Part shown: positions 9,020 to 62,455 of the stretch, piece after piece
How the letters are laid out: every line of letters begins with the position of its first letter
How positions within the stretch are numbered: the first letter of the stretch is position 1
Assembly: GCF_030388665.1 (NCBI RefSeq)
Contig: NZ_CP128846.1
Coordinates: 6,460,501 to 6,524,500, forward strand
Reading direction: 5' to 3'
Length of the DNA stretch: 64,000 nt
Source: Streptomyces flavofungini
GTDB lineage: Bacteria; Actinomycetota; Actinomycetes; Streptomycetales; Streptomycetaceae
Notes under the pieces: model-generated
Databases searched by the model: none
What the model was told of the DNA's origin: nothing
Seen by the model: the letters and a program-made list of their open reading frames with translations, nothing else
Program-made: the position numbers and the translations under genes

Positions 9020-9324
9020 GGGCAGGCCCTCTTGTTGTCGGCGGCGGTGCGGGCGGTCTCGGCCAGGTCGGCGAACTGTCCGGCGAGCGAGGCGATGACG
9101 TCCGGCCGCAGCCTGTAGTAGGTGAACCGGCCGCAGGGCTCTGTCTCGACGACCCCGGCCTCGCGCAGGACTCTCAGATGGTTGGACAGGTTCGTCTGCT
9201 TCGCGCCGGTCTCCTCCACCAGGTGGGTGGTGCACAGCGTCTCGCGGGCCAGCAGGGTCACGATCTGGAGCCTGAGCGGGTCGGCCAGGACCCGGATCAG
9301 TTCAGTGTCGACTGACGTCATCAT
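9016..9324 (-). CDS. arsR: ArsR-family repressor of the acr3 operon
   Basis: 102-residue ArsR/SmtB winged helix. The core reads LIRVLADPLRLQIVTLLARETLCTTHLVEETGAKQTNLSNHLRVLREAGVV. It lacks the CVC motif of the other two ArsR proteins: a single Cys31 (LCTTHL) sits at the alpha3 position, and further Cys occur late (EPCGRFTYY and near the C-terminus). The recognition helix KQTNLSNHLR also differs, fitting a different operator (ACTGACGTCAGT). It heads the arsR-acr3-arsO operon with GTGA coupling. Two adjacent ATG codons are possible starts. Confidence 0.9.
   Translation of the reverse strand: MMTSVDTELIRVLADPLRLQIVTLLARETLCTTHLVEETGAKQTNLSNHLRVLREAGVVETEPCGRFTYYRLRPDVIASLAGQFADLAETARTAADNKRACP
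9313..9320. promoter_or_regulatory. TGACGTCA octamer over the arsR3 start
   Basis: Palindrome TGACGTCA overlapping the start codons of the minus-strand arsR. A second copy lies at 9369-9376 in the same divergent promoter region, so both are candidate sites for ArsR3. Confidence 0.5.
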
Positions 9325-9366
9325 GGGCTGATACTCTCACATCAGTCGCACCTGATACCACTAGAT

Positions 9367-9378
9367 ACTGACGTCAGT
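9367..9378. promoter_or_regulatory. Palindrome ACTGACGTCAGT in the arsR3/arsC promoter region
   Basis: Perfect 12-bp palindrome between divergent arsR3 (start 9324) and arsC (start 9416). CTGAT/ATCAG half repeats surround it (CTGATA near 9329, CACATCAG near 9338, CACCTGAT near 9381). This dense repeat cluster probably lets ArsR3 control both operons. Confidence 0.6.
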
Positions 9379-9415
9379 CACACCTGATGTCCTCTTGAGG
9401 CGAGAGAGGCCCCTG

Positions 9416-9838
9416 ATGCCCGAGAAGCCCTCCGTGCTGTTCGTCTGCGTCCACAACGCGGGCCGTTCCCAGATGGCCGCTGCGTGGTTGAATCACCTGG
9501 CCGGGGACCGGGTGGAGGTCCGCTCCGCCGGTTCTGCCCCCGGGGACCGGGTCAATCCGGCCGCCGTCGAGGCCATGCGCGAGGTCGGCATCGACATCTC
9601 CGCCGAGTCCCCGAAGATCCTGACCGTCGACGCGGTCAAGGAGTCCGACGTGTGCATCACGATGGGGTGCGGCGACACCTGCCCGGTCTTCCCCGGCAAG
9701 CGGTACCTGGACTGGCAGCTGGACGACCCGGCCGGTCAGGGAGTCGAGGCCGTGCGCCCGATCCGCGACGAGATCAAGGAGCTCGTCGAAGGGCTGATCA
9801 AGGAGATCGCGCCGGAGCGGCCGGAGCCCAAGGTGTGA
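9416..9838 (+). CDS. arsC: Arsenate reductase, LMW-phosphatase type
   Basis: 140-residue enzyme reducing arsenate to arsenite for export by Acr3. The P-loop CVHNAGRSQ (Cys11 to Arg17, CX5R) is at the N-terminus. GCGDTCPVFPGKRYLDWQLDDP carries the later Cys and the Asp loop seen in actinobacterial ArsC proteins that use thioredoxin or mycothiol. The ATG at 9416 follows a GAGAGAGG Shine-Dalgarno. It is divergent from arsR3-acr3-arsO. Its stop overlaps the GTG of a truncated thioredoxin reductase gene, the arsCT arrangement known in Streptomyces. Confidence 0.93.
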   Translation: MPEKPSVLFVCVHNAGRSQMAAAWLNHLAGDRVEVRSAGSAPGDRVNPAAVEAMREVGIDISAESPKILTVDAVKESDVCITMGCGDTCPVFPGKRYLDWQLDDPAGQGVEAVRPIRDEIKELVEGLIKEIAPERPEPKV

Positions 9839-44373: not shown

Positions 44374-47300
44374 TCACTGGTGGTCGCGTACCTCTCGCCG
44401 CCTGTGGGCGATCGCCGCGAGCAACGTCCCTGCCGCGAGCAGCGCCGCAGCGATTCCCGACGCCATCCACATGCCCCCCGCCCCGGTGTCCGGCAGCGGC
44501 GGCGTCGGGGTCGACTCCGACGGTGAGGGGGACGGGGAGTCGGAGGGGGAGGGGGAGTCGGAGGGGGACGGCGACGGGGAGTCGGACGGGGACGGTGAGG
44601 GGGAGGGGGAGTCCGACGGTGAGGGGGACGGCGAAGGTGAGTCGGACGGGGACGGGGAGGGGGAGGGGGAGTCCGACGGTGAGGGGGACGGCGAAGGTGA
44701 GTCCGACGGGGACGGGGACGGGGAGGGGGAGTCCGACGGTGAGGGGGACGGCGACGGGGACGGGGAGTCCGACGGCGAGGAGGACGGCGAAGGTGAGTCC
44801 GACGGAGACGGCGACGGCGAAGGTGAGTCCGACGGGGACGGCGACGGAGAGGGCGACGGGGGCCGGTGGATCTCGTCGACCACCCAGGGGGCCTCCGTCG
44901 CGAGGAGGCGGCGGGTCGTGCCGTCGGGCTGGCGGCGGTCGCCCGCGATGGCGATCTTGTTCCAGGTGCGTTCGCCGCCCTCGAACGGCTCGTCGTCGGG
45001 GCCGCGCTCGGGCACGGCCATGGTCCAGCGGAGCGTGTAGCGCTCGCCGGCCGAGAACACATGGTCGCCGAAGTCGAAGCGGACCGAGCGGATCCGGCTC
45101 CAGTCGGTGACTTGGCCCGCTGGTACGAAGGACGGGTCGGGGCGGCCTTCGCACTGGAAGGGGGCGCTGTCGTCCGGGGTGTTGTCCATCTCGGGGCGGC
45201 ACGGGTCGGCCTTGTCCGAGTAGGTGATGGTCACAGGGGCCGAGCCCGCGTCGATGGGCCCGGTGAGCCGGGGGCGCCACTCGCTCGTGACGTCGTCGCC
45301 GTACCGCCCGCTGGTGACGCCGGTGGTGTCGGGGGCGGGCAGCAGGTCGTAGGCGACGACGTTGGTGAGGGCGGTGTTGCCCATGTTGCCGAGGACGGTG
45401 CGGTACTCGACGGTGCCGCCGATCGCCGACTGTCCGACCTCGTCCTCCTTGCCGGGGACCTCCGCCGAGCCCTTGAACGCGTCGTCCTCGTCGCCCTTGA
45501 CCTCCTTGGTCACGAACAGCGCGGAGGACTCGGCGATCGCGAAGTCGTCGGTGGCCTCGGCGACGTTCTCGCCGGTGTTCCCGTCGCCGTCGATGTCGTG
45601 GCGGTCGGTGGTGCGGGTGTTGATGGGCCGCTCGGCGTCGTAGAGGCCCGCGCGGTTGCCCGCGTAGTCGGCGTCGCCGGGGGAGCCGCCGTAGGTGCCG
45701 CTGGCGACGCCGGGCTCGACGGTCGTGCGGAAGGTGTAGACGCAGGAGGAGTCGTCGGCGGGGATCTCGGCGCCGGGTTCGGCGGTCAGCTCGACGCGGG
45801 TGCGGCCGTCGGGGATCTCGGGGCCCGCGGTGACCGTCTCGGTGAAGCGGTCGCCCGCGGGGCAGTGGTCGGGCTGGTCGTCCGCGAGGGCCCAGGAGCC
45901 CTTCACATAGGTGAGCTGGCGGGGTACGAGGTCGACGAAGCGCGGGCGCAGCGGTGAGGAACCGGTGCGGTAGCGGTCGTTGGTGAGCGTCACCGTCCAG
46001 GTGTGGCTGCCGCCGGGGCCGACGGGCGCCGGGTCGGTGGACTTGGCGAGCTCGGGCTGGGAGACCTCGGGTTCGATGTGGAAGCTCGCGCAGGACTCCT
46101 CGTCGGCGCTGCCGCTGCCGCCGGTGAGGCCGAGGCGGGCGCAGTTGTCGACGTCGCCGCTGCCTCCGGGGATCTCGGAGCCGTCGGCGCGGCCGGAGAC
46201 CTGCACGACGAGGTCGGTGCCCGCGGGCAGGCGCGGCACGTCGACGCGCACGGAGACGAGGTCGCCCGAGCCGCGCAGGTCGATGCTCTGCCCGGACGGT
46301 GTGAGGGTCTCGGTGCTGCCGTCGCGCCGGGTCACGACCACCGACCAGTCGCCGCCGTAGGCTCCGCCGGACGGGGTGGACAGGCTGAGGACCTGGGGGT
46401 CGAACCCGGCGGGCAGGGGGTCGCTGAGGCGGGCGTCGGCGGCGTCGGTGCCGGTGTTGGCGAAGCGCAGCACGTACGACACGCGCTGGCCGTCGGCGGC
46501 GAGCGGCGGGTCGACGGACTTGTCGAGGGTGCCGGACACCTCGCCGCCGCCGGAGCCGACGACGGTGTCGGCCGTGTCGGTCTTGGTGATCTTCTCGGTC
46601 TCCGGCCCGTACGGGTCGCCGGTGACGGACGCGGTGTCGGTGAGCGTGGTGCCGTCGGCGACGTCAGCGCGCACCTTCACGCGGATCTCGTGCACGACGC
46701 CGTAGGGGTAGCTCTTGACCTGCGCCAACTGGTCGCCGGGCCGGTCGGGTTCGGTGTCGACGGGCCAGCTGACGGTGCGGGTCGCCGCGTCGTAGGTGTA
46801 GCCCGCGGGGGTGGCGTCGACGAGGTCCACGCCCTCGGGGAGCACGTCGGTGAGGACGGCGTTCTCCAGGGCGAGGTTGCCGCGCGGCCGGTTGGCGTTC
46901 CGGGGGTCGTTGGTGGCGGTGACCTTGTACGTGATGGTCTCGCCGGGCCGGGCGCGGGAGGGGCCCTCCTTGCGGACGGCCGGGTTCGGCTCGGCGGTCA
47001 CCTCGACGACGGCGTCGTCGGTGCTGGGGGTGCCGTCGCCGTTGCCGGCGGTCGCCGACATGCCCGCCCTCTGGTCGCCGGGCGGCGTCCAGTAGTCCTC
47101 GGTGGGCCAGCTGACGGTGAGCTGGGAGCTCTGCCCGCTGGCGATGGAGCTGTACGTGACGGTCACGGTGCCGTCGTCGGCCGCGCTCACACCGGTGACA
47201 CCCGGCGGGTACGGCTGCGACACCACGCCCTTGCCCAAGGCGCCGGGCGGGGGCGTGAAGGTGACGGTCACCGCCTGGCAGTCGCCGGGGATCGAGCACT

Positions 47301-47493
47301 GGATGAACCCGTTGTACGTGACGTGGTCGCCCGCGGGCACCGGCGACGTGCCCGGGTCGAGCCGCACGCTCATCCGGGGGTCGACGCGGGCCTCGCTGTC
47401 GTGGGGCACGAGGGCGAGCGCCGCGAGGGCGGCGACGAGGACGGCCACCGCGGCGACGAGCGCGCGACGGTACCGATGGGCGATGGGGACCAC
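44374..47493 (-). CDS. Large LPXTG-type cell-wall-anchored surface protein
   Basis: 1039 residues. Signal peptide (RRALVAAVAVLVAALAALALVPHDSEA). Then several DUF11-like beta repeats (e.g. RPGETITYKVTATNDPRN; ADGQRVSYVLRFANTGTDAADARLSDPLP; GGSHTWTVTLTNDRY; GGTVEYRTVLGNMGNTALTNVVAYDLLP) spanning about 150-860. A Ser-Pro stalk with SPSPSPSDS units (about 870-990) precedes LPDTG (1000-1004), a hydrophobic helix and a basic tail RRREVRDHQ. This is a complete sortase signal. It probably projects through the wall as an adhesin or coat component. The LPDTG form differs from the LAXTG used by Streptomyces chaplins. Confidence 0.9.
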   Translation of the reverse strand: MVPIAHRYRRALVAAVAVLVAALAALALVPHDSEARVDPRMSVRLDPGTSPVPAGDHVTYNGFIQCSIPGDCQAVTVTFTPPPGALGKGVVSQPYPPGVTGVSAADDGTVTVTYSSIASGQSSQLTVSWPTEDYWTPPGDQRAGMSATAGNGDGTPSTDDAVVEVTAEPNPAVRKEGPSRARPGETITYKVTATNDPRNANRPRGNLALENAVLTDVLPEGVDLVDATPAGYTYDAATRTVSWPVDTEPDRPGDQLAQVKSYPYGVVHEIRVKVRADVADGTTLTDTASVTGDPYGPETEKITKTDTADTVVGSGGGEVSGTLDKSVDPPLAADGQRVSYVLRFANTGTDAADARLSDPLPAGFDPQVLSLSTPSGGAYGGDWSVVVTRRDGSTETLTPSGQSIDLRGSGDLVSVRVDVPRLPAGTDLVVQVSGRADGSEIPGGSGDVDNCARLGLTGGSGSADEESCASFHIEPEVSQPELAKSTDPAPVGPGGSHTWTVTLTNDRYRTGSSPLRPRFVDLVPRQLTYVKGSWALADDQPDHCPAGDRFTETVTAGPEIPDGRTRVELTAEPGAEIPADDSSCVYTFRTTVEPGVASGTYGGSPGDADYAGNRAGLYDAERPINTRTTDRHDIDGDGNTGENVAEATDDFAIAESSALFVTKEVKGDEDDAFKGSAEVPGKEDEVGQSAIGGTVEYRTVLGNMGNTALTNVVAYDLLPAPDTTGVTSGRYGDDVTSEWRPRLTGPIDAGSAPVTITYSDKADPCRPEMDNTPDDSAPFQCEGRPDPSFVPAGQVTDWSRIRSVRFDFGDHVFSAGERYTLRWTMAVPERGPDDEPFEGGERTWNKIAIAGDRRQPDGTTRRLLATEAPWVVDEIHRPPSPSPSPSPSDSPSPSPSPSDSPSPSSSPSDSPSPSPSPSPSDSPSPSPSPSDSPSPSPSPSDSPSPSPSPSDSPSPSPSPSDSPSPSPSPSDSPSPSPSDSPSPSDSPSPSPSESTPTPPLPDTGAGGMWMASGIAAALLAAGTLLAAIAHRRREVRDHQ
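44516..44876. repeat. Ser-Pro stalk tandem repeats
   Basis: Imperfect 24-30 bp units (GAGTCCGACGGTGAGGGGGA-like) repeated about a dozen times and coding on the minus strand for (SPSPSP)SDSP units of the surface protein. Unit length varies in multiples of 3, keeping the frame. Confidence 0.9.
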
Positions 47494-49346: not shown

Positions 49347-50546
49347 TCATGCCAAACCCCGGCCCCGTCCCCGGGAGACCGCATGGACGGGCCCCCGCCC
49401 GGTCCCGTCCGGCGTCTCCGCCTGGGCGGGCGCCTCCGCCCCGGCCCACTCCATCCGCGACCACGGCAGGGCCAGCTCCGCCGCCGACGACACCGTGCGG
49501 GGTGCGAGGCCGTCCAGGTCGGCGGCCTCGGCGTGGCGGGCGAAGACCGTGTCGACGTAGCGGTGGCCGGTGTCGGCCGCGAGGAACACCGTGGTGCCGC
49601 CCGGGACCCGGGCGTGCTCCCAGCGGGCCGCCGCGTAGCTCGCGCCGGTGGACAGGCCCGCGAACACGGCGTGGCGGCGCAGCAGGTCGACGCTCCCGGC
49701 GAGGGCGGTGTCGAACGACAGCCAGTGGACGGTGTCGTACGCCGTGTGCGACACGTTGGCGAACGGGATCGAGCTGCCGATCCCCGCGATGATGATCTCC
49801 GGGTCGGCCACGTGCTCGCTGCCGAACGTGACACTGCCGAAGGGCTGCACGCCCACGAGCCGCACCGGCCCCGCGCCGTCCGCCCGCCGGATTGGACCCG
49901 TACCGTCCGCCCGCAGGTACCGGGCCAGCGCACCCGTCGAAGCTCCCGAGCCCACCCCGCCGACCAGGGTGAGCGGTCCGCCGTCCGCGGGCGCCGCCGC
50001 GCGGACGCGGTCGGCGATCGCGCGGTAGCCGAGGTAGTGGATGTCGTCGTGGTACTGCCGCATCCAGTGGTAGTCGGGGTGCGCGGCCAGGATCTCGTGC
50101 ACGCGGGCGACCCGCCGCTTCTGGTCCAGCTTCAGGTCGGAGCTCGGCGGCATCTGCTCCAGGCGCGCTCCCAGGACGGCGAGTTGGGTGCGCAGGGCGC
50201 GGTCGACGGTGGTGGAGCCGACGATGTGGCAGCGCATGCCGTAGCGGTGGCAGGCCAGGGCGAGGGCGTACGCGTAGATGCCGCTGGAGCTGTCGAGGAG
50301 GGTGTCGCCGCGGCGTACCGCGCCCGTGTCCAGGAGATGGCGGACCGCGGCGAGCGCCGACACGACCTTCATGGTCTCAAAGCGCAGGCAGATGAGCCCC
50401 TCGTCGACACGTATCAGGTCGGGGCGGCCGATCGCCTCCGCGATGTGCTCGTCCATCCCGTCCATCCCGTCCATCCCGTCCACCTCGTGCATCTCGCCCG
50501 CTTCGTCCGTCTCTGCTGTCTCTTGTGTCGCTACCGTCTCTTCCAT
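49347..50546 (-). CDS. PLP-dependent cysteine-synthase-fold enzyme (metallophore-type operon)
   Basis: 399 residues of fold-type II PLP enzyme. The likely PLP lysine is Lys60 in RFETMKVVSALAAV, replacing the usual S-x-K-DR motif. DSSSGIYAYALALACHRYG is the substrate (Asn-loop) motif in altered form, and LVGGVGSGASTGALARYL is the glycine-rich phosphate cup. Related enzymes (CysK, SbnA) replace the beta-group of O-acetyl- or O-phosphoserine. The ATG at 50546 has GGAGGAG seven bases upstream. It overlaps the kinase gene by 170 bases in another frame. Best guess: beta-replacement on a phosphorylated amino acid made by that kinase, giving a diamino-acid-type unit (inference). Confidence 0.82.
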   Translation of the reverse strand: MEETVATQETAETDEAGEMHEVDGMDGMDGMDEHIAEAIGRPDLIRVDEGLICLRFETMKVVSALAAVRHLLDTGAVRRGDTLLDSSSGIYAYALALACHRYGMRCHIVGSTTVDRALRTQLAVLGARLEQMPPSSDLKLDQKRRVARVHEILAAHPDYHWMRQYHDDIHYLGYRAIADRVRAAAPADGGPLTLVGGVGSGASTGALARYLRADGTGPIRRADGAGPVRLVGVQPFGSVTFGSEHVADPEIIIAGIGSSIPFANVSHTAYDTVHWLSFDTALAGSVDLLRRHAVFAGLSTGASYAAARWEHARVPGGTTVFLAADTGHRYVDTVFARHAEAADLDGLAPRTVSSAAELALPWSRMEWAGAEAPAQAETPDGTGRGPVHAVSRGRGRGLA

Positions 50547-51618
50547 GCGGGTGCTCCTCCGTGAAGATGTGTGAAATGGCGGTGTGGGGGCGGGAGTTCG
50601 AGTGGCCTGGCAGGGGAGCGGTCCGCCTCGGGTCCGTCGCGAAGGTGTACGTGGCCGGGATGCCCGCCGCCGCCAGCGCCTGGGAGCAGCGGCGCAGCCG
50701 CCCCCGCAGGTCCGCGGCCGCCGGGTCGAAGAGCAGGCCCGCCACATTGCCGCTGTGCGCGACCTGCACGCCCACCGCGCCGACCCGGCCCGCGATGGCC
50801 GTGAGCTCCCCGAACTCCTCGTGCGGCAGGACGCGTTGGCCGCGCCGTGCGCTCTCGGTCGCGACATGGCCGAGCAGCACCGGGTCCGCGGTGGCGACGG
50901 CCCGCCGCAGCAGGGCGCGCAGCCGCTCGTACGCGCGCACGTCCTCGTCGTCGTACCCGCGCGTCGGGAGCGCCAGGGTGTCCACGGGCCGCCCGCCGCC
51001 GAGCGCGCAGCCGACGACGACCGCTGGCGGCAGCGCGGCGCCGAGCTCCTCAAGGACCCGGCCCTCCCGCTGGGCGAAGAGGAGCGGGCGGCCGTCCAGC
51101 ATCAGCGGATCCGACGCCCGCTCGGCGCGCACCGCGAGCCGGGCGATGGCCTCCGGCGCGAGGAGCACCCCGAACGCGTCCGCGACCGCGCGCACCGCGG
51201 CGATCACGTCACTGCTCGACGAGCCCATGCCGAGCCCCACGGGTATGGCGCCCGACAGCCGCAACTCGCCGCCGCACAGGGGCTCCTGACAGTGCGTCGC
51301 GCATTCCGCCATCGCGTAGGTGGCGGCCCGCAGCGCCTTGGTGCGGTCGGCGGGCACCACCGTGACGTCCTCGGCGTCCGGGCGGCGCACGAACTCCGCC
51401 CGGGTGCCGAGCGCGGGCAACGGCAGGGTGACCAGGCCCGCCCGCCGCCGCCCGCGCTCGTCGAGGAAGACCCCCTGGAGGATCTCGCCGTGGTGGCAGG
51501 CGGCGTGCCCGGTGCCGGTGCTGGTGCCGGTGCCGGTCGTGGTGCCCCCGCTGGTGGTGGTGCGCGGGTCCGTGCGTGTGCCGGTGCCGGGCCCGTCCTG
51601 CGGCGCCGCGCCCCTCAC
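50377..51618 (-). CDS. GHMP-family amino-acid kinase, PduX-like
   Basis: 413 residues. GHMP motifs: HHGEILQGVFLDERG near the start, PVGLGMGSSSSDVIAAVRAVAD as the ATP loop, and GVQVAHSGNVAGLLFD near the C-terminal part. The HGEILQG and HSGxxxGLL forms are closest to PduX-type L-threonine kinases. It would phosphorylate Thr or Ser as leaving-group activation for the PLP enzyme next door (inference). The GTG at 51618 overlaps the DUF364 stop (GTGA). A Thr/Gly repeat (TTTGTGTSTGTG) precedes the domain. The last 60-70 residues are Arg/Asp/Gly-rich, overlap the PLP gene and are probably not conserved. Confidence 0.82.
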   Translation of the reverse strand: MRGAAPQDGPGTGTRTDPRTTTSGGTTTGTGTSTGTGHAACHHGEILQGVFLDERGRRRAGLVTLPLPALGTRAEFVRRPDAEDVTVVPADRTKALRAATYAMAECATHCQEPLCGGELRLSGAIPVGLGMGSSSSDVIAAVRAVADAFGVLLAPEAIARLAVRAERASDPLMLDGRPLLFAQREGRVLEELGAALPPAVVVGCALGGGRPVDTLALPTRGYDDEDVRAYERLRALLRRAVATADPVLLGHVATESARRGQRVLPHEEFGELTAIAGRVGAVGVQVAHSGNVAGLLFDPAAADLRGRLRRCSQALAAAGIPATYTFATDPRRTAPLPGHSNSRPHTAISHIFTEEHPHGRDGSDTRDSRDGRSGRDARGGRDGRDGRDGRAHRGGDRPPRPDTCRRGAHLPAL

Positions 51619-52436
51619 GACCCGCCCTTCGCGCGCGGCTCCGCCCGGTACCGGTACAGCGCCGTCGGCTCGGCGCTGAACTGGGAGAACGGGAACGGCT
51701 CCGCGGACAGCGCGGTCACCCCTGCGCCCAGGAACGCCCGCGCCACCGCGCTGCCAGACTGCGCGTACACGATCAGCGGCACGCCGCGCTCGCGGCAGCG
51801 GGCGAGGATCGTGTCGAAGGTGCCGTTGCTGAGGGTCATGCCGGTGGCGACGACGGCGTCGGCCGTGGCGAGCACCTCGTGCATGTCGTCGCTGACGGGG
51901 TCGCCCCACTGGGTCGTGCGCAGGTTGAGGTCGCAGGGCAGCGGGTCGCCGCCGCGTTCGCGGATCGCCGCCACCAGCGGGTTGACGACGCCGATCAGGG
52001 CGACCTTGGCGCCGGGCTCGATGTCGAGGAGGCCCGCTATGGCCGTGTCCCGCGCCACCGCGCGGACCTCGGGCGGCCCGGCGGGCAGCGTCACGGGCTC
52101 GGCGCCCGCGGCCTCGCGGTGCGGTGAGACGGCGGCCAGGTAGGCGTCGAGCGCGGCCGTCCGCAGCGCCCGCGGCGCCTGCCGGAGCAGCGTGGCCAGC
52201 GAACTGCCCGAAGCGTCCCGGCAGATGGCCGGGTCGATCTCGCCCGCCTCGAAGGCGCAGCCGCCGAAGGCTCCGCCGACCCGCACGAGGACGTACTGGT
52301 TGAGGTAGGTGACGTCGCCGCCCGCGAGCCGCGTGCCGTGATGGATCCAGAACACGCTGGTGGCAGTCAACTCGGCGGGATCCGGGCCGAGTTCACCGGC
52401 GAGGACGGCGGAGAGGAGTTCGTCGACGGTCTTCAC
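51615..52436 (-). CDS. DUF364-type protein (putative heavy-metal chelation domain)
   Basis: 273 residues. The N-terminal half (TVDELLSAVLAGEL ... SVFWIHHGTRL, VGGAFGGCAFEAGEI) matches the DUF4213-like segment and the C-terminal Rossmann half (KVALIGVVNPLVAAIRERG, ADAVVATGMTLSNGTFDTIL) matches DUF364. Such genes are often beside metal or siderophore ABC transporters. A cyclase or ligand-handling role is possible; no reaction is established. GTGA overlaps on both sides lock it between the methyltransferase and the kinase. Confidence 0.85.
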   Translation of the reverse strand: MKTVDELLSAVLAGELGPDPAELTATSVFWIHHGTRLAGGDVTYLNQYVLVRVGGAFGGCAFEAGEIDPAICRDASGSSLATLLRQAPRALRTAALDAYLAAVSPHREAAGAEPVTLPAGPPEVRAVARDTAIAGLLDIEPGAKVALIGVVNPLVAAIRERGGDPLPCDLNLRTTQWGDPVSDDMHEVLATADAVVATGMTLSNGTFDTILARCRERGVPLIVYAQSGSAVARAFLGAGVTALSAEPFPFSQFSAEPTALYRYRAEPRAKGGS

Positions 52437-53320
52437 GCGAAGCCTCCGGGGGTCGGCTGAGAAGAGGATGGGGACTGGGGAGGGGACGAGGGCTGGGAGG
52501 GGGACGAGGGCTGGGGAGGGGATGCGAGCGGGGAAGAGGACGAGGGCCGGGAAGGGGATGCGGCCTGGGACGGGGGCGGGGACTGGCGCGAGGACGTGAG
52601 CTGGAATTTGAGGAGGAACGTCAGGACGCCGTCCTCCCAGTCGTGCAGATGGTCGACCTCCGTCGTGAAGCCCCTGGCCAGCGCGTCCCCGACGATGGCG
52701 CGCAGATCGGCGGTGTTCGACACGATCACGTACACCTCGCCGCCCGGCGCGAGCAGGTCCCGCTCCGCGAGCTGCGCGAAGAAGCGCGCGAGCAGTGGCG
52801 CCCCCACGCACACGTTCCGTACGACGTCGGGGTCCTCGCTGACCGGCTGGCTGACCGCGGGCGGGTTGAACGTCACGACGTCGAGCCGGACGCCCGCGGG
52901 CAGCGCCTCGAAGACGTCGCCGACGAGGGGGAAGAGGCGGGTGCCGGGGCGCTCGCCGACCAGGCGGGCGTAGTGCCGGGCCGTCGTGGCGACGCTCTCG
53001 GGGTGCACGTCGAGCGCGTAGATCTCGCGGGCCCCGCGCACGCCCGCGGCGACCGCCTCCACGCCGAGTCCGGCGCCCATCGCCGCGTACCGGCGAAAGC
53101 GCGTCTCGATGCGGCCGTCGAGCAGCCGCTCGTGGATGAGGCGGCTGGTCCAGCCCGGTATGAACACGCCGGGCGGCACGTCGAAGGCCCAGCCGTTCCA
53201 GGCGTAGGAGCGGGAGGTGTGCAGGTCCGCCTTGGGCTGGTTGAGCGCGATGACGCGCGCGGCGGGCAGCGGCGGCGGCAACTGGTCGAGCAGGGCGGCT
53301 CCGGTGGCCGTGGCGTCCAT
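52433..53320 (-). CDS. Class I SAM-dependent methyltransferase
   Basis: 295 residues. SAM motif I is MGAGLGVEAVAAGVRGA (about 81-97), with acidic EIYALDVHPE after it. VVTFNPPAVS supplies the NPP tripeptide (152-154) found in methyltransferases acting on polar amino or amide nitrogen. It may N-methylate the metallophore or its building block (inference). The ATG follows AGGAGG and overlaps the FecE-type stop (TGATG). The last 50 residues are a Ser/Pro repeat encoded by simple GA-rich DNA (about 52445-52590), not part of the fold. Confidence 0.82.
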   Translation of the reverse strand: MDATATGAALLDQLPPPLPAARVIALNQPKADLHTSRSYAWNGWAFDVPPGVFIPGWTSRLIHERLLDGRIETRFRRYAAMGAGLGVEAVAAGVRGAREIYALDVHPESVATTARHYARLVGERPGTRLFPLVGDVFEALPAGVRLDVVTFNPPAVSQPVSEDPDVVRNVCVGAPLLARFFAQLAERDLLAPGGEVYVIVSNTADLRAIVGDALARGFTTEVDHLHDWEDGVLTFLLKFQLTSSRQSPPPSQAASPSRPSSSSPLASPPQPSSPSQPSSPPQSPSSSQPTPGGFA

Positions 53321-54225
53321 CAGGCCTCCTTCGGCCGTGCGGTCCATGAGGTCTCCTTCGGGGTGGGGGAGTCGGCGGGTTCGGGGGCGGGGGCGGGGCG
53401 GGCCGCCGGGACGAGAGGCGCGGGGGCGGGGGACGCGGGCGTGCCCGCGGGGGTGGCGGGCGCGGCGACACCCCGGTACGCGACCGCGAGGTGCCCGAGC
53501 GCGTCCGGCCCCGTCACCGCGTCCACCTCGAACACCTCGGCGAGCAGCGGTGGCGTCAGGACCTCCCTCGGCGCCCCGTCGGCGACGAGGCGGCCGTCGT
53601 GCAGCAGGAGCAGCCGGTCGCAGTAGCGGGCGGCGAGGGACAGGTCGTGCAGCGCGACCAGGACGGTCTGGTCGGTGGCCGCGAGCAGGTCGAGCAGCTC
53701 CAACTGGTGCTTCACGTCGAGGTGGTTGGTCGGCTCGTCGAGCAGGATCGCGTACGGCTGCTGGGCCAGGGCGCGGGCGATGTGGGCGCGCTGGCGCTCG
53801 CCGCCCGACAGTGCCTTCCAGGGGCGCTCGCCCAGCTCGGTGAGGCTGAGGCGGTCGAGGGCCGCGGCCACGACGGCCCGGTCCCGCGCACCGAAGCCGC
53901 GCCACCGGTCGCCGAAGGGCGTACGGCCGAGCGTCACCACGTCCACGACCCGCAGGTCGCTGTCGGTGTCGGCGGCCTGCTCCACGAACGCCACGTGGCG
54001 GGCGATCCGGCGCGCGCTCCACGACCGGATCGGCTCCTTGTCGTACGAGACCGAGCCGGACGTCGGAGCGCGAAGACCCGCGAGACAGCGCAGCAGCGTG
54101 GACTTGCCGGAGCCGTTGGGGCCGATCAGGCCGACCGTCTCGCCCGGCGCGATGTCCAGGCCGACGCCGTCGACGACGCGTCTGCCCGCCACGGACCAGC
54201 CGAGGCCTTCGGCGGTGATCCTCAC
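53320..54225 (-). CDS. FecE-type ABC transporter ATPase for metal complexes
   Basis: 301 residues. Walker A GLIGPNGSGKSTLLRCLAG, signature LSGGERQRAHIARALAQQP, Walker B AILLDEPTNHLDVKHQ and H-loop VLVALHDLSLAARY are complete. The form is that of siderophore and cobalamin importers. The C-terminal 45 residues are Ala/Pro-rich and likely flexible. The GTG start overlaps the permease stop (GTGA). It is upstream of the biosynthetic genes in the same transcript. Confidence 0.95.
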   Translation of the reverse strand: MRITAEGLGWSVAGRRVVDGVGLDIAPGETVGLIGPNGSGKSTLLRCLAGLRAPTSGSVSYDKEPIRSWSARRIARHVAFVEQAADTDSDLRVVDVVTLGRTPFGDRWRGFGARDRAVVAAALDRLSLTELGERPWKALSGGERQRAHIARALAQQPYAILLDEPTNHLDVKHQLELLDLLAATDQTVLVALHDLSLAARYCDRLLLLHDGRLVADGAPREVLTPPLLAEVFEVDAVTGPDALGHLAVAYRGVAAPATPAGTPASPAPAPLVPAARPAPAPEPADSPTPKETSWTARPKEA

Positions 54226-55376
54226 AGTTCCCCCCGCTTGCGCAGGACCAGCAGGAACAGCGGCACGCCGAGCAGCGCCGTGAACACCCCGACGGGCACC
54301 TCTTGCGGTGCGAACGCGACCCGCGCGAGCGCGTCCGTCCACACCAGGAACACCGCGCCGACCAGCGCCGACAGCGGGAGCAGCGTCCGGTGCGGCGGCC
54401 CGACGAGGAACCGCACGCCGTGCGGCACGATCAGGCCGACGAACCCGATGGCGCCCACGGACGCCACGGCCACCGCCGTCATCAGGGACGTCACGACGAG
54501 CAGCGTCCAGCGCGTCCTGCGGACGTCCACCCCGAGGGACGCGGCCGTGTCCGTACCGAACGAGAAACCGTCCAGGGCAGCCGAGTTGAGCCACAGGACG
54601 AGCAGCCCCGCCGCCGTCACCGCCGCGGTCACCGCCGTGGTGTCCCAGCGCGCCGGGGCCATCGAGCCGAGCAGCCACTGCGTGATCGCCCGGATCGCCT
54701 CGGAGTCGCCGGACGCCATCAGGACGAGCGAGGTCAGCGCCGTGAAGAGCTGCGAGACGACCACACCGGTGAGCACCACCCGGACCGAGTCCAGGCCGCC
54801 CTTCCTGAGGAGCAGCATCAGCAGCCCGAACGACACCAGCGCGCCCACGAACGCGCCGCCGGTCACCCCGAGCGAGGCGGACCCGACCCCGAGCACGACC
54901 ACCGTGACCGCGCCCGTCGACGCCCCCGAGGAGATGCCGAGGAGGTAGGGGTCGGCGAGCGCGTTGCGCGTGATCGCCTGGAGCGCCGCGCCGCACACCG
55001 CGAGCGAGGCCCCCACCAGCGCCGCCATCAGCACCCGCGGCACCCGCAGGTCCCAGATCAGCGAGTCCACCAGACGCGGCAACGGCTCGACGTCCAGGCC
55101 CAGATGGAACCCGGCGGTGCGCACCACGTCGGCGTACGACACGTCGGTGGTGCCGATCCGGACGGACGCCACGAGGGAGACGGCGAGGGCGAGGCCGGTG
55201 AGGAGGTGGAGGGACACCGCCGAGGGGGCGGACAGACGCGCGCGGCGCGCCGTCCGCTCCGGGGCCGGGCCCCGCGGAACCGGTGGCGCCGCGGTGACAC
55301 GGGCCGCGATGTCACGGGCCGCGATGTCACGGGCCGAGGGGTGCAGCAGGTCGAGGGAGCCCGGGCTAGCGGGCAT
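54222..55376 (-). CDS. FecCD-type ABC permease for metal complexes
   Basis: 384-residue permease with about ten helices. LRVPRVLMAALVGASLAVCGAALQAITRNALADPYLLGISSGAS is the FecCD signature (quoted in its parts RVPRVL, GAALQ, NPLA-like NALADPYLLG). The coupling region SVGAIGFVGLIVPHGVR contacts the ATPase. The first 45 residues are hydrophilic and repeat ARDIAAR. A single permease gene implies a homodimer. The ATG at 55376 overlaps the end of the lipoprotein gene by 11 bases. Confidence 0.93.
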   Translation of the reverse strand: MPASPGSLDLLHPSARDIAARDIAARVTAAPPVPRGPAPERTARRARLSAPSAVSLHLLTGLALAVSLVASVRIGTTDVSYADVVRTAGFHLGLDVEPLPRLVDSLIWDLRVPRVLMAALVGASLAVCGAALQAITRNALADPYLLGISSGASTGAVTVVVLGVGSASLGVTGGAFVGALVSFGLLMLLLRKGGLDSVRVVLTGVVVSQLFTALTSLVLMASGDSEAIRAITQWLLGSMAPARWDTTAVTAAVTAAGLLVLWLNSAALDGFSFGTDTAASLGVDVRRTRWTLLVVTSLMTAVAVASVGAIGFVGLIVPHGVRFLVGPPHRTLLPLSALVGAVFLVWTDALARVAFAPQEVPVGVFTALLGVPLFLLVLRKRGEL

Positions 55377-56400
55377 ACCCGAGGTCCTTCATCCCGGCCG
55401 TGAGGCGCGGCAGCGCGCCGACGGTGCGGACGGACGGGTCCATCTCCGTGCCCGGGATCTCGATGAACCGCTTCTTCTCGACGGCGTCGAGCTTCGCCGT
55501 CACCGGGTTCGCACGGATCGCCTTGAGCTTGTCGGCCGCGCTGTCACCGGGCTTGCCGCGCTCCGACAGGTCGCCGATCACGATGAAGTCCGGGTTCCGC
55601 TCGGCGATCTGTTCCCAGGTGACGGTCGGCCAGTCCTCGTCGATGTCGTCGAAGGCGTTCTTCGCGCCGACGGTCCTGCTCATCTCGCTGGGGATCGCGC
55701 TCCTGCCCGCGACGTACGGGGTGTCGCCGTAGACGGAGTACAGCCAGACGACGGTGGGTTCGCCCTTGACCCGGTCCTTGGTCCGCGCCGCCTCCGTGAG
55801 CGTGGCGCGCTGCTTCTCGACCAGCTTCGCGGCCCGCTTCTCCACGCCGAAGATCCGGCCGAGGTCCCGGTAGTCCTGGAAGAGCAGCTCGAAGGGCGAC
55901 TTGGCCTTCTGCCCCGCCCCGGCGTTCTGCTTGGGGCAGTCCACGGCGCTCACGAACGACGGCAGACCGAGCCCCGCGAGCTCCTCGCGGGTGCCGACGC
56001 GGTCCTTGGTGAAGTAGTCGGTGAAGCCGCCGATGGTGAAGTCCGGTGTCGCGGCGCGCAGTTGCTCGCTGGTGAGGATCTTCGGGCTGAGCACGTCGAC
56101 GGTGTCGTACGCCTTCCGGTACTCGGGCGCGATCTTCGTCTTCAGGTTGGACGTGCCGGCCATGCGGCCCTGGAGGCCGAGTTCGAGCAGCACCTCCGTG
56201 GCGGACTGGTCGAGGGCGACGGTGCGCTCGGGCGGTCCGTCGAAGCTCAGCTTCCGGCCGCAGCTCGTGACGGTCGTCTCCCGGCCGCCCGCCCTGTCGT
56301 CCGAAGCGGAGCCGCCGCCGTCGGACGACGAACAGCCGACGGCCGTGAGGGCGAGCGTGAGGGCGGCTATGCCGTAGCGGGCGGGGTGGCGGTGGCGCAT
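55366..56400 (-). CDS. FecB-type metal-complex-binding lipoprotein
   Basis: 344 residues. Lipoprotein signal with lipobox TAVGC (Cys23), followed by a Ser/Gly/Asp linker. Substrate-binding domain begins VTSCGRKLSFDGPPERTVAL, then SATEVLLELGLQGRMAG and later WEQIAERNPDFIVIGD, the periplasmic-binding-protein-2 pattern of siderophore receptors. The ATG at 56400 follows GGAGG by five bases; the longer frame from 56448 lacks this and would run into the Zur-type box. First gene of the operon. Confidence 0.93.
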   Translation of the reverse strand: MRHRHPARYGIAALTLALTAVGCSSSDGGGSASDDRAGGRETTVTSCGRKLSFDGPPERTVALDQSATEVLLELGLQGRMAGTSNLKTKIAPEYRKAYDTVDVLSPKILTSEQLRAATPDFTIGGFTDYFTKDRVGTREELAGLGLPSFVSAVDCPKQNAGAGQKAKSPFELLFQDYRDLGRIFGVEKRAAKLVEKQRATLTEAARTKDRVKGEPTVVWLYSVYGDTPYVAGRSAIPSEMSRTVGAKNAFDDIDEDWPTVTWEQIAERNPDFIVIGDLSERGKPGDSAADKLKAIRANPVTAKLDAVEKKRFIEIPGTEMDPSVRTVGALPRLTAGMKDLGYAR

Positions 56401-56439
56401 GGGACCTCCGGTCTGGGGTGGGACGCGATAAGGGTACTG

Positions 56440-56460
56440 TAATGGCAATCATTTTCATTA
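56440..56460. promoter_or_regulatory. Zur-like 21-bp palindrome in the divergent promoter
   Basis: TAATG and CATTA outer arms surround inner AAT and ATT arms, centred on C56450; the two variable dinucleotides are GC and TT. Read on the minus strand it contains TGAAAATGATT, the core of Streptomyces Zur sites. It lies 40 bases before the lipoprotein start and about 170 before the MFS start, so one site could control both operons. It does not match the TTAGGTTAGGCT-type iron (DmdR/IdeR) box. Confidence 0.75.
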
Positions 56461-56627
56461 ATGGGTTCCGGGGTGTCCGCCGCCGCCCGGTGACGGGTCA
56501 CCGGCCCTCTTCAACTGCCTCTCTTCGCAGGTCGGTTGGGTGGCGGTAGCGGGCCCCATAACGATTTCGAGATCCGTACGCGGGCCGTGGGAGGCCGGTG
56601 CGGACCGTCAGGAGAGGAGTGCGTGAC

Positions 56628-57968
56628 GTGGCGACTACGCCGATACGGACGGGGGCCGACGAGGCCCAGGAGGACGGCGCCGCCGAGGAGGCGGCCCGGG
56701 GGCCCGGTGTGCTGCGGGACCTGGCCTTCCTGCGGCTCTGGTGCGGGACCACCGCGTCCGGGCTCGCGACCTGGGCGCTGCCGTTCGTCCTCGGGCTCGC
56801 CGTCCTCGACCGGACCATCGGCGCGGCGACGCTCGGCCTGCTGCTCGCCGCCCGTACCGCAGGCTTCCTCGTGGCCGTCGCCGTCGGCGGGGTCCTCGCC
56901 GACCGGTACTCGCGGCGCGGCGTCGTCCTGTGGGCCGGCCTCGCCGCCGCGACCGCGACCCCGCTGCTCGCCCTCGGGCTCGGGCGGTCGCTGCCGCTGA
57001 TGCTCGCCGCGGCCGTGGTCGCGGGCGCGGGGCAGGGCGCGTGCCGCCCCGCCTTCCAGGCGCTCACCGCCGAAGTCGTCGACGAGGACCGCCGCCAGGC
57101 GGCCAATGCCGCGATGACCCTGTCGGTACGCGCCACCACCCTCGCCGGTCCCTCCCTGACGGCGCTGCTCGCCGTCGTCCTCGACACCTGGACGCTGCTG
57201 CTCGGGATCGGGGCGCTGTGGCTGGCGGCCGCGCTGGTGCCGGGACCCGGGGCGGGGCGGCGGGGGACCGCGGAGGCCGCGACCGGGAGCGGGGCCGACA
57301 CCGACGGGGAAGGCGTGGGCGACCGCCGACGGCCCTCGTTCTTCGCGGAGTTCGCGGAAGGGCTGCGCGAGGCGCGGCGCCACCCCTGGTTCCTCGCCGG
57401 GCTCGGCGCGCTCACCGTCGTCATCAGCACCGGCTACTCGGCGACCGGCGTCGCGCTCCCGCTGGTCAGCCGCGACAAGTACGACACCGGCTTCGTCCTC
57501 GCCGCCGCCATGACCGCGTACACGCTGGGCGCGCTCGGCGGAGCCGTCGTCGTCGCGCGCTGGCGCCCCCGCGCGCAGGGCTGGGCCGCGCTCGCGGGCC
57601 TCGGCCTGTACGGCTTCGCGCCGCTGAGCCTGCTGCTTCCCGTGCACTGGGCGGTCGTCGTGGCCGCGTACGTGGTGGCGGGGATCGGCATCGAACTGTT
57701 CAACGTGCCCTGGTTCACGGCGACGCAGCGCGAGGTCGCCCCCGACAAGCTGGCCCGCGTCTCGTCCCTGGACTTCATGCTGTCCTACGGCCTCGCGCCC
57801 GCCGGGCTCGCCCTGATCGCCCCGGCCATCGAGCAGTTCGGGCCCCGGCCCGTGCTCGCCGTGTGCGCGGTGCTGTGCTTCGCGGCGCCCGCGGCGGCGG
57901 CCCTGGTGCCGAGCGCGCGCGGGTTCGCGCGGCGGGAGCCTGTGGAGGCGGGCGCACGCGATGCGTGA
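56628..57968 (+). CDS. MFS exporter (candidate metallophore exporter)
   Basis: 446 residues from GTG 56628, placed after GAGAGGAG; GTG at 56619 or 56598 are alternatives. Twelve helices in two halves: FLRLWCGTTASGLATWALPFVLGLAVL, GGVLADRYSRRGVV (the MFS loop 2-3 motif), and after the central loop STGYSATGVALPLVSRDKYDTGF and GIGIELFNVPWFTATQREVAPD. It resembles enterobactin-exporter-like (EntS-type) proteins. Divergent from the importer operon across the Zur-like box, it is well placed to secrete the product. Confidence 0.88.
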   Translation: MATTPIRTGADEAQEDGAAEEAARGPGVLRDLAFLRLWCGTTASGLATWALPFVLGLAVLDRTIGAATLGLLLAARTAGFLVAVAVGGVLADRYSRRGVVLWAGLAAATATPLLALGLGRSLPLMLAAAVVAGAGQGACRPAFQALTAEVVDEDRRQAANAAMTLSVRATTLAGPSLTALLAVVLDTWTLLLGIGALWLAAALVPGPGAGRRGTAEAATGSGADTDGEGVGDRRRPSFFAEFAEGLREARRHPWFLAGLGALTVVISTGYSATGVALPLVSRDKYDTGFVLAAAMTAYTLGALGGAVVVARWRPRAQGWAALAGLGLYGFAPLSLLLPVHWAVVVAAYVVAGIGIELFNVPWFTATQREVAPDKLARVSSLDFMLSYGLAPAGLALIAPAIEQFGPRPVLAVCAVLCFAAPAAAALVPSARGFARREPVEAGARDA

Positions 57969-58740
57969 CCCGCTCCCGGGCGCCGCGCCCGGCCACGGCA
58001 TCGTGCCGCCCCGCGTCCCGCCCGAGCGCGTCGACGAAGCCCCCGGCCTGCTCGCCGAGCACGGCGCCGTCGTCCTGGCCGCGTACGACGGCGGCGGCGC
58101 CGACCCCCTCACCCTCGCCGCCGCGCGGGTGCTCGGGGCCCGGCTGCGCGAGCTGTACCCGCAGCGGCTGCGGACCTCGCGGGACGGCGGCCCCGTCCAC
58201 CTGCACGCGGACAGCTTCGACGTGTCGGTGGACGTCGGCGGCGTACCCAGCAGGCGCCGCCACCCCGACGAGGACCACGTCTTCGTGCGCTGTCTGCGTC
58301 CGGCGCCGTCCGGCGGGCACTCCTTCGCCCTGGACGCGGGCCGGTTCGTGGACGGCCTGGCCGCGGCCGACCCCGAGCTCGCGGACTTCCTGACGGGGTG
58401 CGACGTGGATCTGTACGGGGCGTGGGCGGGCCTGCGCGGGCTGCCCGCGACGCCGCGCGTCGGGCGGCACGTGGAGTGGACGCGCACCGGGCGCCGGATC
58501 GTGCGGCGCACCGACGGCGCGGTGCCCCTGCACCGCGACCCGGACGCCGAGCGGGTCACCGCCCTGCTCGACCGCTTCACGCGGACCGTGCACGGCCTCG
58601 AAGGCGCGCTGCCGCGCTTTTGGCTCGACGCGGGCGACATCCTCGTACTCGACAACTACCGCTGCTGGCACGGCCGGGACGGGCACGCGGGGGAGCGGGC
58701 GGTGCGGATCCTGACGGTACGCAGCACGGAGGCGCGGTGA
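57961..58740 (+). CDS. TauD-like Fe(II)/2-oxoglutarate oxygenase
   Basis: 259 residues. The facial triad is suggested by HLHADSFD (His82-x-Asp84) and by the distal His in DNYRCWHGRDGH, followed by an Arg (RAVRIL) for 2-oxoglutarate. DAGDILVLDNYRCWHGR is the classic TauD/clavaminate-synthase-like C-terminal motif. It could hydroxylate an amino acid side chain of the metallophore (inference). The ATG overlaps the exporter stop by eight bases (ATGCGTGA). Confidence 0.82.
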   Translation: MRDPLPGAAPGHGIVPPRVPPERVDEAPGLLAEHGAVVLAAYDGGGADPLTLAAARVLGARLRELYPQRLRTSRDGGPVHLHADSFDVSVDVGGVPSRRRHPDEDHVFVRCLRPAPSGGHSFALDAGRFVDGLAAADPELADFLTGCDVDLYGAWAGLRGLPATPRVGRHVEWTRTGRRIVRRTDGAVPLHRDPDAERVTALLDRFTRTVHGLEGALPRFWLDAGDILVLDNYRCWHGRDGHAGERAVRILTVRSTEAR

Positions 58741-58976: not shown

Positions 58977-59372
58977 ATGCAGTCCTACACCATCGGTCAG
59001 GCCGCCCGGCTCCTCGGCGTCAGCCCCGACACCGCCCGCCGCTGGGCGGACGCCGGGCGGGTCGTCACGCGCCGTGACGACGCCGGGCGCCGCGTCATCG
59101 ACGGGCGCGACCTGGCGGCGTTCTCCGTGGAGCTGGCCCGGGCCGGGACCACCGGGGACGAGGACACGTACACGTCCGCGCGCAACGCGTTCCCCGGCAT
59201 CGTCACCGCCGTGAAGCTCGGCGACGTGGCCGCGCAGGTCGAGATCCAGGCGGGCCCGCACCGCCTGGTCTCGCTGCTCACCCGCGAGGCGGTGGAGGAG
59301 CTCGGCCTGGAGGTCGGCATGGAGGCCACTGCCCGGGTGAAGTCCACCAGCGTGCACATCGACCGCGTCTGA
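58977..59372 (+). CDS. HTH-Mop (TOBE) molybdate-responsive regulator
   Basis: 131 residues. An excisionase/MerR-like helix-turn-helix ([27 protein letters not shown]) is at 2-30. A molybdate-binding Mop/TOBE domain ([40 protein letters not shown]) follows at about 60-128. Starting at ATG 58977 gives MQSYTIGQ; the frame from 58968 adds three residues. It is 31 bases before modA, and probably senses molybdate and controls the mod genes. Confidence 0.9.
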
Positions 59373-59403
59373 ACCCCTCGAACGCAGACCAGGAGCCCCG
59401 CTC

Positions 59404-60273
59404 ATGCCCCCCGTTTCCCCTGCCTCGTCGCTCTCCCGTGCCGTCCGCTCCCCGCGGACCCGGACCCGGACCCGGACCCGGCGCCGTGCCGCCGCCGCGG
59501 TGGCCGCCGCCGCGCTGCTCCTGCCGCTCGCCGCCTGCGGTGACGACGGCGACGGCGGCAGCGAGAAGGACAAGGGCGGTGAGGGCGGCACGGCCGGTGC
59601 CGTGCCCAAGGCCGATCTGACCGTGCTCGCCGCCGCGTCGCTCACCGACGTGTTCAAGACCGTCGAGACCGCGTACGAGAAGAAGCACCCCGGCACGAAG
59701 CTCACCTTCTCCTTCGCCGGTTCGCAGGAACTGGCCGCGCAGGTCAAGCAGGGCTCGCCCGCCGACGCGCTGGTCACCGCCGACACCAAGACCATGGACG
59801 GCCTGAAGTCCGACGTCGGCTCGCCGACCGTCATCGCCAAGAACCGCCTCGTCATCGCGACGCGCGACGGCAACCCCAAGAAGATCAAGAGCCTTGAGGA
59901 CCTCACCGACAGCGACCTCAAGGTCGTGCTCGCCGCCCCCGAGGTGCCCGTCGGGCGCTACAGCCAGCAGGTGCTCGACGCCCAGAAGCTCAAGGTCGAG
60001 CCCGTCTCGCAGGAGGCGAGCGTGCGCGGTGTGCTCAGCAAGGTCGAGCTGGGCGAGGCCGACGCGGGCGTCGTCTACAAGACGGATGCCGCGACCGCCC
60101 CCGACAAGGTCGACGCCGTCACCATCCCCGACGCGCAGAACGCCGTGGCGTCCTACCCGGCCGCCACCCTCAAGGAGTCCGGGCACAAGGAGGCCGCGGA
60201 GGCGTTCGTGAAGTGGCTGAGCACGCCCGAGGCGCAGAAGATCCTTCAGGAGGCGGGCTTCCAGAAGCCGTGA
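59404..60273 (+). CDS. modA: Molybdate-binding lipoprotein ModA
   Basis: 289 residues. A [12 protein letters not shown] basic start, hydrophobic core and lipobox LAAC (Cys45). [52 protein letters not shown] and [13 protein letters not shown] supply the Ser/Ala/Tyr oxyanion contacts of Mod[17 protein letters not shown] is also typical. It follows the HTH-Mop regulator and precedes the fused ModBC. Confidence 0.95.
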
Positions 60274-60388
60274 CCACGGGACGGGCCCGCCCCGCCCCGC
60301 CCCGCTTCGCGCAAGCCCCGCTCCGCCTTGTCCGTCCCTGCCGTCCCCTCCGTGACCCGCTGATCCCTCCCGTACGTCAGGACCACCG

Positions 60389-62455
<2,067 letters not shown>

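Follow-up and report, generated by a model that had tools for sequence, protein, structure and literature searches.

A predicted Zur-controlled amino-acid metallophore locus in Streptomyces flavofungini and the linkage of its kinase to an SbnA-like enzyme

Described systems and the nine-gene locus

The zincophore [S,S]-ethylenediamine-disuccinate ([S,S]-EDDS) of Amycolatopsis japonicum, encoded by the aes genes, is the nearest described kind of system to the one analyzed here, a nine-gene locus at positions 49347-58740 of a 64-kb stretch, C1:6460501-6524500, of the Streptomyces flavofungini genome (hereafter the window). As far as the available excerpts of the literature go, EDDS is controlled by Zur and made without a nonribosomal peptide synthetase (NRPS) or an NRPS-independent siderophore (NIS) synthetase, and Streptomyces scabiei makes EDHA, a related aminopolycarboxylate, from an 11-kb cluster. 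Zur control and the lack of NRPS and NIS synthetases appear to be common to EDDS and the window cluster. EDDS and EDHA were compared with it at the level of description; judged from the products, a methyltransferase or a kinase is not expected in those two systems, unlike in the window cluster.

In the staphyloferrin B pathway, according to the part of the source available, SbnA uses O-phospho-serine and glutamate, with Arg132, Tyr152 and Ser185 selecting the phospho-donor, and central metabolism makes the kinase SbnI redundant (PMC12414870). The window shares with this SbnA-SbnB system, as excerpted, an SbnA-like pyridoxal 5'-phosphate (PLP) enzyme with the donor-binding Lys, Arg and Tyr and an accessory amino-acid kinase; it differs in having Gly at the position of SbnA Ser185 and a zinc box, and in that neither SbnB nor an IucA-type synthetase was found among its nine proteins. 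SbnI and the GHMP kinase of the window belong to different families. The opine-type compounds staphylopine and pseudopaline are small zincophores with export and ATP-binding cassette (ABC) import, and excerpts place the pseudopaline genes under Zur; Pfam searches of the nine proteins of the window gave no nicotianamine-synthase-like or opine enzyme match, nor were the adenylation and condensation domains of a coelibactin-type NRPS metallophore found among them. The DUF364 protein of the window has the same two-domain fold as Dhaf4260 (PDB 3l5o) and PH1506 (PDB 3npg), and the available part of PMC2954201 does not describe this family as a partner of PLP enzymes. No description of the cluster was found in the titles and abstract openings of the open-licence literature.

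We consider it likely that the locus is a Zur-repressed amino-acid metallophore cluster without NRPS or IucA synthetase, serving most likely for zinc, and its product is probably a zincophore; the evidence is sequence and predicted structure throughout. The assembly comprises 4 contigs and 9.36 Mb, and the window holds all nine genes together with a 21-bp palindrome at 56440-56460:

49347-50546, minus strand: SbnA-like PLP enzyme, fold type II (PF00291, 104.1 bits; best NCBIfam model SbnA, under its cut-off)
50377-51618, minus strand: GHMP small-molecule kinase (PF00288, 48.8 bits; motifs GEILQG and GLGMGSSSSD)
51615-52436, minus strand: DUF364 protein with both domains (PF04016)
52433-53347, minus strand: HemK/N6AMT1-like class I methyltransferase (NPPAVS motif; start at 53347 or 53320)
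53320-54225, minus strand: FecE-type ATPase (PF00005, 118.7 bits)
54222-55376, minus strand: FecCD-type permease (PF01032, 303.3 bits)
55366-56400, minus strand: FecB-type substrate-binding lipoprotein (Peripla_BP_2, PF01497, 94.8 bits; GGAGG before the start, lipobox LTAVGC by eye)
56440-56460, no strand: predicted Zur-box between the operons, about 40 bp ahead of the fecB start
56598-57968, plus strand: major facilitator superfamily (MFS) transporter, proposed exporter (PF07690, 110.7 bits; in 66 of 77 related loci)
57961-58740, plus strand: TauD-like Fe(II)/2-oxoglutarate oxygenase, accessory (PF02668, 47.1 bits; in 14 of 77 related loci)

The original prediction, made from the window sequence, had proposed nine genes in two divergent operons with overlapping junctions and without NRPS or IucA-type synthetase, and this layout is confirmed. 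Seven genes run on the minus strand from fecB (start 56400) down to the PLP enzyme (end 49347), the MFS and TauD genes start on the plus strand at 56598 and 57961, and the divergent region with the 21-bp element separates the two operons. According to the coordinates all seven same-strand junctions overlap: FecB/FecCD by 11 bp, FecCD/FecE, methyltransferase/DUF364 and DUF364/GHMP by 4 bp each, MFS/TauD by 8 bp, and, depending on the start, FecE/methyltransferase by 1 or 28 bp and GHMP/PLP by about 80-170 bp. Pfam matches were obtained for eight of the nine proteins (Peripla_BP_2, FecCD, ABC ATPase, DUF364, GHMP kinase, PALP, MFS, TauD) and, among all nine, Pfam detected no NRPS domain, IucA/IucC synthetase, SbnB-like dehydrogenase, lyase or decarboxylase. 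The ninth, the methyltransferase, has no Pfam match at E ≤ 0.001; its assignment relies on HemK/PrmC-type NCBIfam matches that are weak and fall short of their cut-offs, and on a predicted structure model, for which HemK-type N-methyltransferases are the best match, a match that by itself does not exclude aminobutyryl transfer. The DUF364 protein reaches the curated score of PF04016 and has the two-domain fold, and the kinase motifs are conserved, with small changes only, in 18 aligned relatives. The closest named relatives of the PLP enzyme are from Streptomyces, S. alboflavus first; its true start is probably 50456 (MDEHIAEA, as in the relatives), and its residues (Lys60, Arg145, Tyr165, Ser200) are numbered here from the start at 50546.

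The 21-bp element and Zur

The element, TAATGGCAATCATTTTCATTA, matches its own reverse complement at 16 of 21 positions, and its minus-strand reading, TAATGAAAATGATTGCCATTA, agrees with 14 of the 15 specified positions of the longer published form of the actinobacterial Zur-box, a score taken on the identical 21-mer of the related locus L017. The sequence TGNNAATGATTNNCA occurs exactly at two places in the 9.36-Mb genome and, allowing at most one mismatch, at 4 forward and 10 reverse places, against 2 and 2 for a reversed-pattern control. One site with one mismatch lies directly ahead of a znuA-like gene of the same genome. That gene, for a His-rich ZnuA-like protein, and genes for a permease and an ABC ATPase (all named from their translations) lie upstream of C1:6328065, the best Fur-family match of four in the genome, and on its strand. 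A fitting site near a promoter, a zur gene and a known Zur target are thus all found in this genome, as membership of a Zur regulon would entail at the sequence level.

A profile built from 24 methyltransferases was searched against named actinobacterial genomes and gave at least 78 loci, 77 of them distinct (set 1); with the total being a lower bound, the absence of any genome from this set carries no meaning. In this set the 21-bp Zur form scores above dinucleotide shuffles upstream of 70 of the 76 distinct loci and the 15-bp form does so in 62 of the 76. A pass means that at most 1 of 60 shuffles is as good, so that two or three chance passes are expected. The test has 77 rows, 71 of which pass, because it includes L045, which duplicates L044 exactly at the opposite end of the same contig; L048 has no upstream region, which leaves 76 distinct loci. 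In genomes of the same genus, 51 of the 55 loci with a close DUF364 gene, the window not counted, have Zur-box-like sites (at least 12/15, or 11/11), as have 4 of the 7 loci of a more distant DUF364 group. These are maxima over whole loci, irrespective of where a site lies relative to the cluster genes, and are to be read against a background of eight block shuffles per locus whose maxima are 8 to 11. Such sites also occur in relatives without the methyltransferase, and in L135-L139, L143 and L144-L146 the Zur scores are at background.

The published consensus, the znuA box in the same genome and the conservation across loci together support, as far as sequence can show, the identification of the element as a Zur-box and control by Zur. 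Both had been put forward in the original prediction, which also suggested looking for a Zur-box ahead of related clusters, and both stand at this level. Two other readings of the element were rejected. A chance palindrome is incompatible with the genome-wide counts, with the 70 of 76 loci and with a degenerate pattern giving 84 matches in 78 loci against 0 when reversed; general control by iron is not consistent with an IdeR/DmdR1 consensus box that exceeds shuffles in only 1 of 76 distinct loci (L055). CobW is a usual Zur target, and a CobW-type GTPase gene lies at L067:13513-14697 (Pfam, checked in L067 alone), with relatives in five loci in all (L067, L076, L080, L090 and L093). In L141 a Fur-family regulator gene (9042-9662), perhaps a cluster-specific Zur, directly follows a divergent kinase gene.

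Residue 200 and the donor of the PLP enzyme

Residue 200 of the PLP enzyme sits in the motif V-G-G-V-G-[S/T]-G-A-S-T, beside the PLP phosphate loop, and follows the presence of the kinase gene throughout the DUF364 clusters read. Among the 72 PLP enzymes of set 1, window included, all 58 from loci with the kinase have Ser there, and the 14 from loci lacking it all have Thr; in an enlarged set of 118 DUF364-linked enzymes, again with the window, the counts are 97 of 97 and 21 of 21. PLP enzymes were readable in 54 of the 56 close DUF364 loci of the same genus, with Ser in 45 of 45 with the kinase (window included) and Thr in 9 of 9 without. No other column is perfect: the next one carries 0.607 of the information, and residue 93, at this value, was set aside as a second specificity site, being weaker and imperfect. 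Ser also occupies position 200 outside DUF364 clusters, in 8 of 8 PLP enzymes whose genes have a kinase gene no more than 4.5 kb away. In the distant DUF364 group, which lacks the kinase, 7 of 7 enzymes have Thr, the residue that SbnA has there (Thr186).

On a methyltransferase and DUF364 tree of 69 rows, kinase presence and residue 200 each change 6 times, and all 6 of the independent pairs show both changes together (p = 0.031). On a PLP tree of the enlarged set, well supported branches require 5 switches, again coupled in 5 of 5 pairs (p = 0.0625); the trees are quick searches. A single ancient split passed on by descent was therefore rejected as the origin of the coupling, at least 5 switches being forced. 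Since residue 200 tracks the kinase over independent switches, it is strongly supported that the kinase and the PLP enzyme share a substrate, which places both in one pathway as had been predicted; very likely the kinase makes the donor of the PLP enzyme, and the simplest reading is that its product serves in this role and that kinase-bearing and kinase-less groups use different donors.

Which donor this would be can be approached through SbnA. Lys47, Arg132 and Tyr152 of SbnA correspond to Lys60, Arg145 and Tyr165 here, identical in 25 of 25 rows, and Thr186 aligns with residue 200. The NCBIfam model TIGR03945 (SbnA) gives the window enzyme 113.5 bits against a cut-off of 349.95, and three of four SbnA positions are kept. 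In NRPS antibiotics 2,3-diaminobutyrate is made by the logic of a kinase, a PLP enzyme and a lyase. Clusters L135-L139 carry, side by side, relatives of the window kinase (192-221 bits) and of its PLP enzyme (110-148 bits), with Ser at 200; an argininosuccinate-lyase-like gene follows in L135, L137 and L138, the annotated ones, an ATP-grasp ligase is also present in L137 and L138, and large neighbouring open reading frames (ORFs) look NRPS-like by eye. Unlike the window, these clusters have neither DUF364 nor FecBCDE, and they lack Zur scores above background. They suggest 2,3-diaminobutyrate, and the excerpted source on mureidomycin derives its 2,3-diaminobutyrate from threonine (PMC3179956).

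Because the kinase-linked enzymes outside DUF364 clusters carry Ser (8 of 8, three of them beside an argininosuccinate-lyase-like gene), while SbnA and the kinase-less distant group carry Thr, we propose O-phospho-threonine as the donor where the kinase is present and O-phospho-serine where it is not; Ser in place of Thr at position 200 would make room for the methyl group of threonine. Loci L144-L146 combine a kinase with a Ser200 PLP enzyme without DUF364 or a Zur-box; FecBCDE-type genes are present in L144 and L145, and an ATP-grasp ligase, another methyltransferase and an MFS-like ORF (by eye) in L146.

Core genes, proposed pathway and rival explanations

The co-occurrence search suggested by the original prediction shows that the gene set recurs together with FecBCDE and MFS genes. 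In the 77 loci of set 1 (L045 left out, L048 kept; some stretches end at contig ends) we counted DUF364 in 73, the PLP enzyme in 72, MFS in 66, the kinase in 59, FecB in 58, FecE in 57, FecCD in 56 and TauD in 14, and methyltransferase, DUF364 and PLP enzyme occur together in 72. The genera include Streptomyces, Amycolatopsis, Nocardiopsis, Prauserella, Saccharothrix, Actinokineospora and Glycomyces, and three Actinopolyspora loci, two of them annotated, have the methyltransferase alone. Of 295 genomes drawn evenly from the same genus, 18 carry the methyltransferase and 56 a close DUF364 (E ≤ 2e-138); in another 66 the best match is a distant DUF364, so that 122 of 295 have a DUF364 relative at E ≤ 1e-40; a phylum-wide sample of 396 genomes gave the methyltransferase in 2, the window's own genome and one of the same genus. 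A class-wide search with the PLP enzyme had matches in 132 of 325 genomes (E ≤ 1e-15); among the weaker ones many are probably ordinary cysteine synthases.

In the wider sample there are 117 distinct loci that combine DUF364 with the PLP enzyme, and in 37 of these the 4.5 kb around the PLP gene contain no methyltransferase (the count omits 8 duplicates and 16 loci without a readable PLP enzyme, seven of which are the distant DUF364 group), and the methyltransferase was rejected as a defining core gene. The close loci come in several versions: FecBCDE-DUF364-kinase-PLP with MFS and without methyltransferase (for example L129-L134); the window type, with methyltransferase; PLP-DUF364-second-type MFS-FecBCDE with a divergent kinase, followed in L141 by the regulator gene mentioned above; and the kinase-less methyltransferase-PLP-PhyH oxygenase-DUF364-MFS (L149-L153 and L155, with PhyH confirmed by Pfam in L149). 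In the distant group (L163-L168 and L200, three of them annotated) DUF364 is also paired with a PLP enzyme. The core thus consists of the PLP enzyme and DUF364, nearly always with the MFS exporter and mostly with the ABC importer in view, and the kinase, methyltransferase and oxygenases are variable parts. In one locus of the distant group, Pfam identifies an ATP-grasp ligase, an enolase-superfamily protein, an MFS transporter and a family-5 binding protein (L165:6402-15284); a Zur-box-like site stands just ahead of the ligase gene, in what looks like a second type of DUF364-PLP cluster, with Thr at 200. Locus L086 has two exporter-importer sets, with TauD and a window-type FecBCDE as opposed to another FecBCDE type beside the biosynthetic genes.

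From the predicted box, its conservation and the protein families, the following scheme can be drawn. When zinc is scarce, Zur would leave the box at 56440-56460 and both operons would be expressed. The GHMP kinase would phosphorylate a hydroxy amino acid, most likely L-threonine, and the PLP enzyme would eliminate the phosphate and join the amino group of a second amino acid to the beta carbon, giving an aminocarboxylate of the 2,3-diamino-acid type. DUF364 may catalyze an additional invariant step, perhaps one that condenses or processes the adduct; N-methylation by the methyltransferase and hydroxylation by the TauD oxygenase would be optional decorations. The MFS protein would export the product and FecBCDE would re-import the metal complex. 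In kinase-less clusters the Thr-type PLP enzyme probably uses O-phospho-serine from normal metabolism. Of the pathway as originally predicted, Zur control (as far as sequence can show), independence of NRPS and IucA and the placing of kinase and PLP enzyme in one route are supported, and the gene set recurs; methylation and TauD hydroxylation are lost as core steps, given TauD in 14 of 77 loci and the 37 of 117 without a nearby methyltransferase. A broader proposal, which we put forward tentatively and hold to be somewhat less probable than its negation, is that SbnA-like PLP enzymes have in DUF364 their missing partner in biosynthesis, and that the two belong to a large family, so far undescribed, of amino-acid metallophores under Zur control, in which Ser200 with the kinase gives threonine-derived chelators of the 2,3-diaminobutyrate type, Thr200 without it gives serine-derived ones of the 2,3-diaminopropionate type, and several lineages have switched between the two.

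Several observations weigh against a zinc metallophore made in this way. Methyltransferase, DUF364, PLP enzyme, MFS and a complete FecBCDE occur together in only 51 of the 77 loci, some of which end at contig ends; six of the 76 distinct loci (L026, L051, L053, L058, L084 and L090) fail the 21-bp box test and 14 fail the 15-bp form, and the Zur scores of L153, L154 and L155 are background only. The third donor contact of SbnA, Ser185, is Gly199 here and the substrate loop is unlike that of SbnA (SSSGIY against TSGNLG), and therefore the donor could be something else; the argument on the threonine methyl group is a steric one. On a PLP tree with the residue-200 column and column 93 removed, 5 changes give 5 of 5 pairs (p = 0.0625), so that the sign test rests on few events, and L143, without DUF364, is kinase-less by the 4.5-kb rule and nevertheless has Ser, with its kinase farther off.

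Three other explanations of the locus were weighed. An EDDS- or EDHA-type cluster under Zur control would turn O-phospho-serine, which is an EDDS precursor, and aspartate into ethylenediamine-disuccinate or a closely similar compound; this would agree with the excerpted account, in which EDDS is controlled by Zur and its route resembles neither NRPS nor NIS pathways. It leaves the methyltransferase, kinase and DUF364 without an obvious job, however, and among the nine proteins, where Pfam detects no decarboxylase or lyase, none would be predicted to catalyze a decarboxylation or the addition of a second succinate; we regard it as improbable. Scarcely different in standing, if slightly lower, is a chelator for iron, cobalt, nickel or copper, with Zur control as part of a general metal-stress response. 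FecBCDE systems mostly import iron chelates or corrinoids, aminocarboxylates bind several metals, and family-5 binding proteins, of which L165 has one, are also known from nickel and staphylopine import; against this, the Zur-box stands in 70 of 76 distinct loci and the iron box in one.

The least probable of the three, to which we give little credence, supposes no secreted metallophore at all and sees in the locus an intracellular uptake and zinc-sparing amino-acid pathway, for example one converting a scavenged foreign chelate. The available text of PMC2954201 places DUF364 genes generally near metal transport genes, which would suit it, but an exporter-type MFS gene is transcribed divergently from the other side of the box, and 66 of 77 loci contain an MFS gene. 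The Zur-repressed, most likely zinc-directed metallophore cluster remains the preferred reading. If it is true, a function area would be assigned to the long-named DUF364 family, and a new route to metal-binding amino-acid chelators would come with a sequence rule predicting the building block. The counts suggest that a large share of Streptomyces may scavenge zinc with a system that follows neither NRPS nor NIS rules. Chelators of this kind have practical uses: in the excerpts available EDDS is described as biodegradable, and aspergillomarasmine A as inhibiting metallo-beta-lactamases by taking zinc (PMC8319579).

Some minor features of the window can be added. An Rfam scan and a tRNA search of the 64 kb returned nothing. 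Low-complexity stretches lie at several junctions of the minus-strand operon (49347-54225): the methyltransferase has a Ser/Pro-rich tail absent from the other 23 rows of the 24-sequence profile, bar a short one in P0123, the kinase has a Thr/Gly-rich head, and ATGGACGGG is repeated ahead of the PLP enzyme. Adjoining the cluster, 58977-62455 encodes a MerR-TOBE regulator, a ModA-type family-11 binding protein and a single chain of 688 residues combining permease and ATPase-TOBE parts. The DUF11-repeat protein encoded at 44374-47493 ends in an LPDTG-like sequence and contains a long Ser/Pro/Asp repeat.

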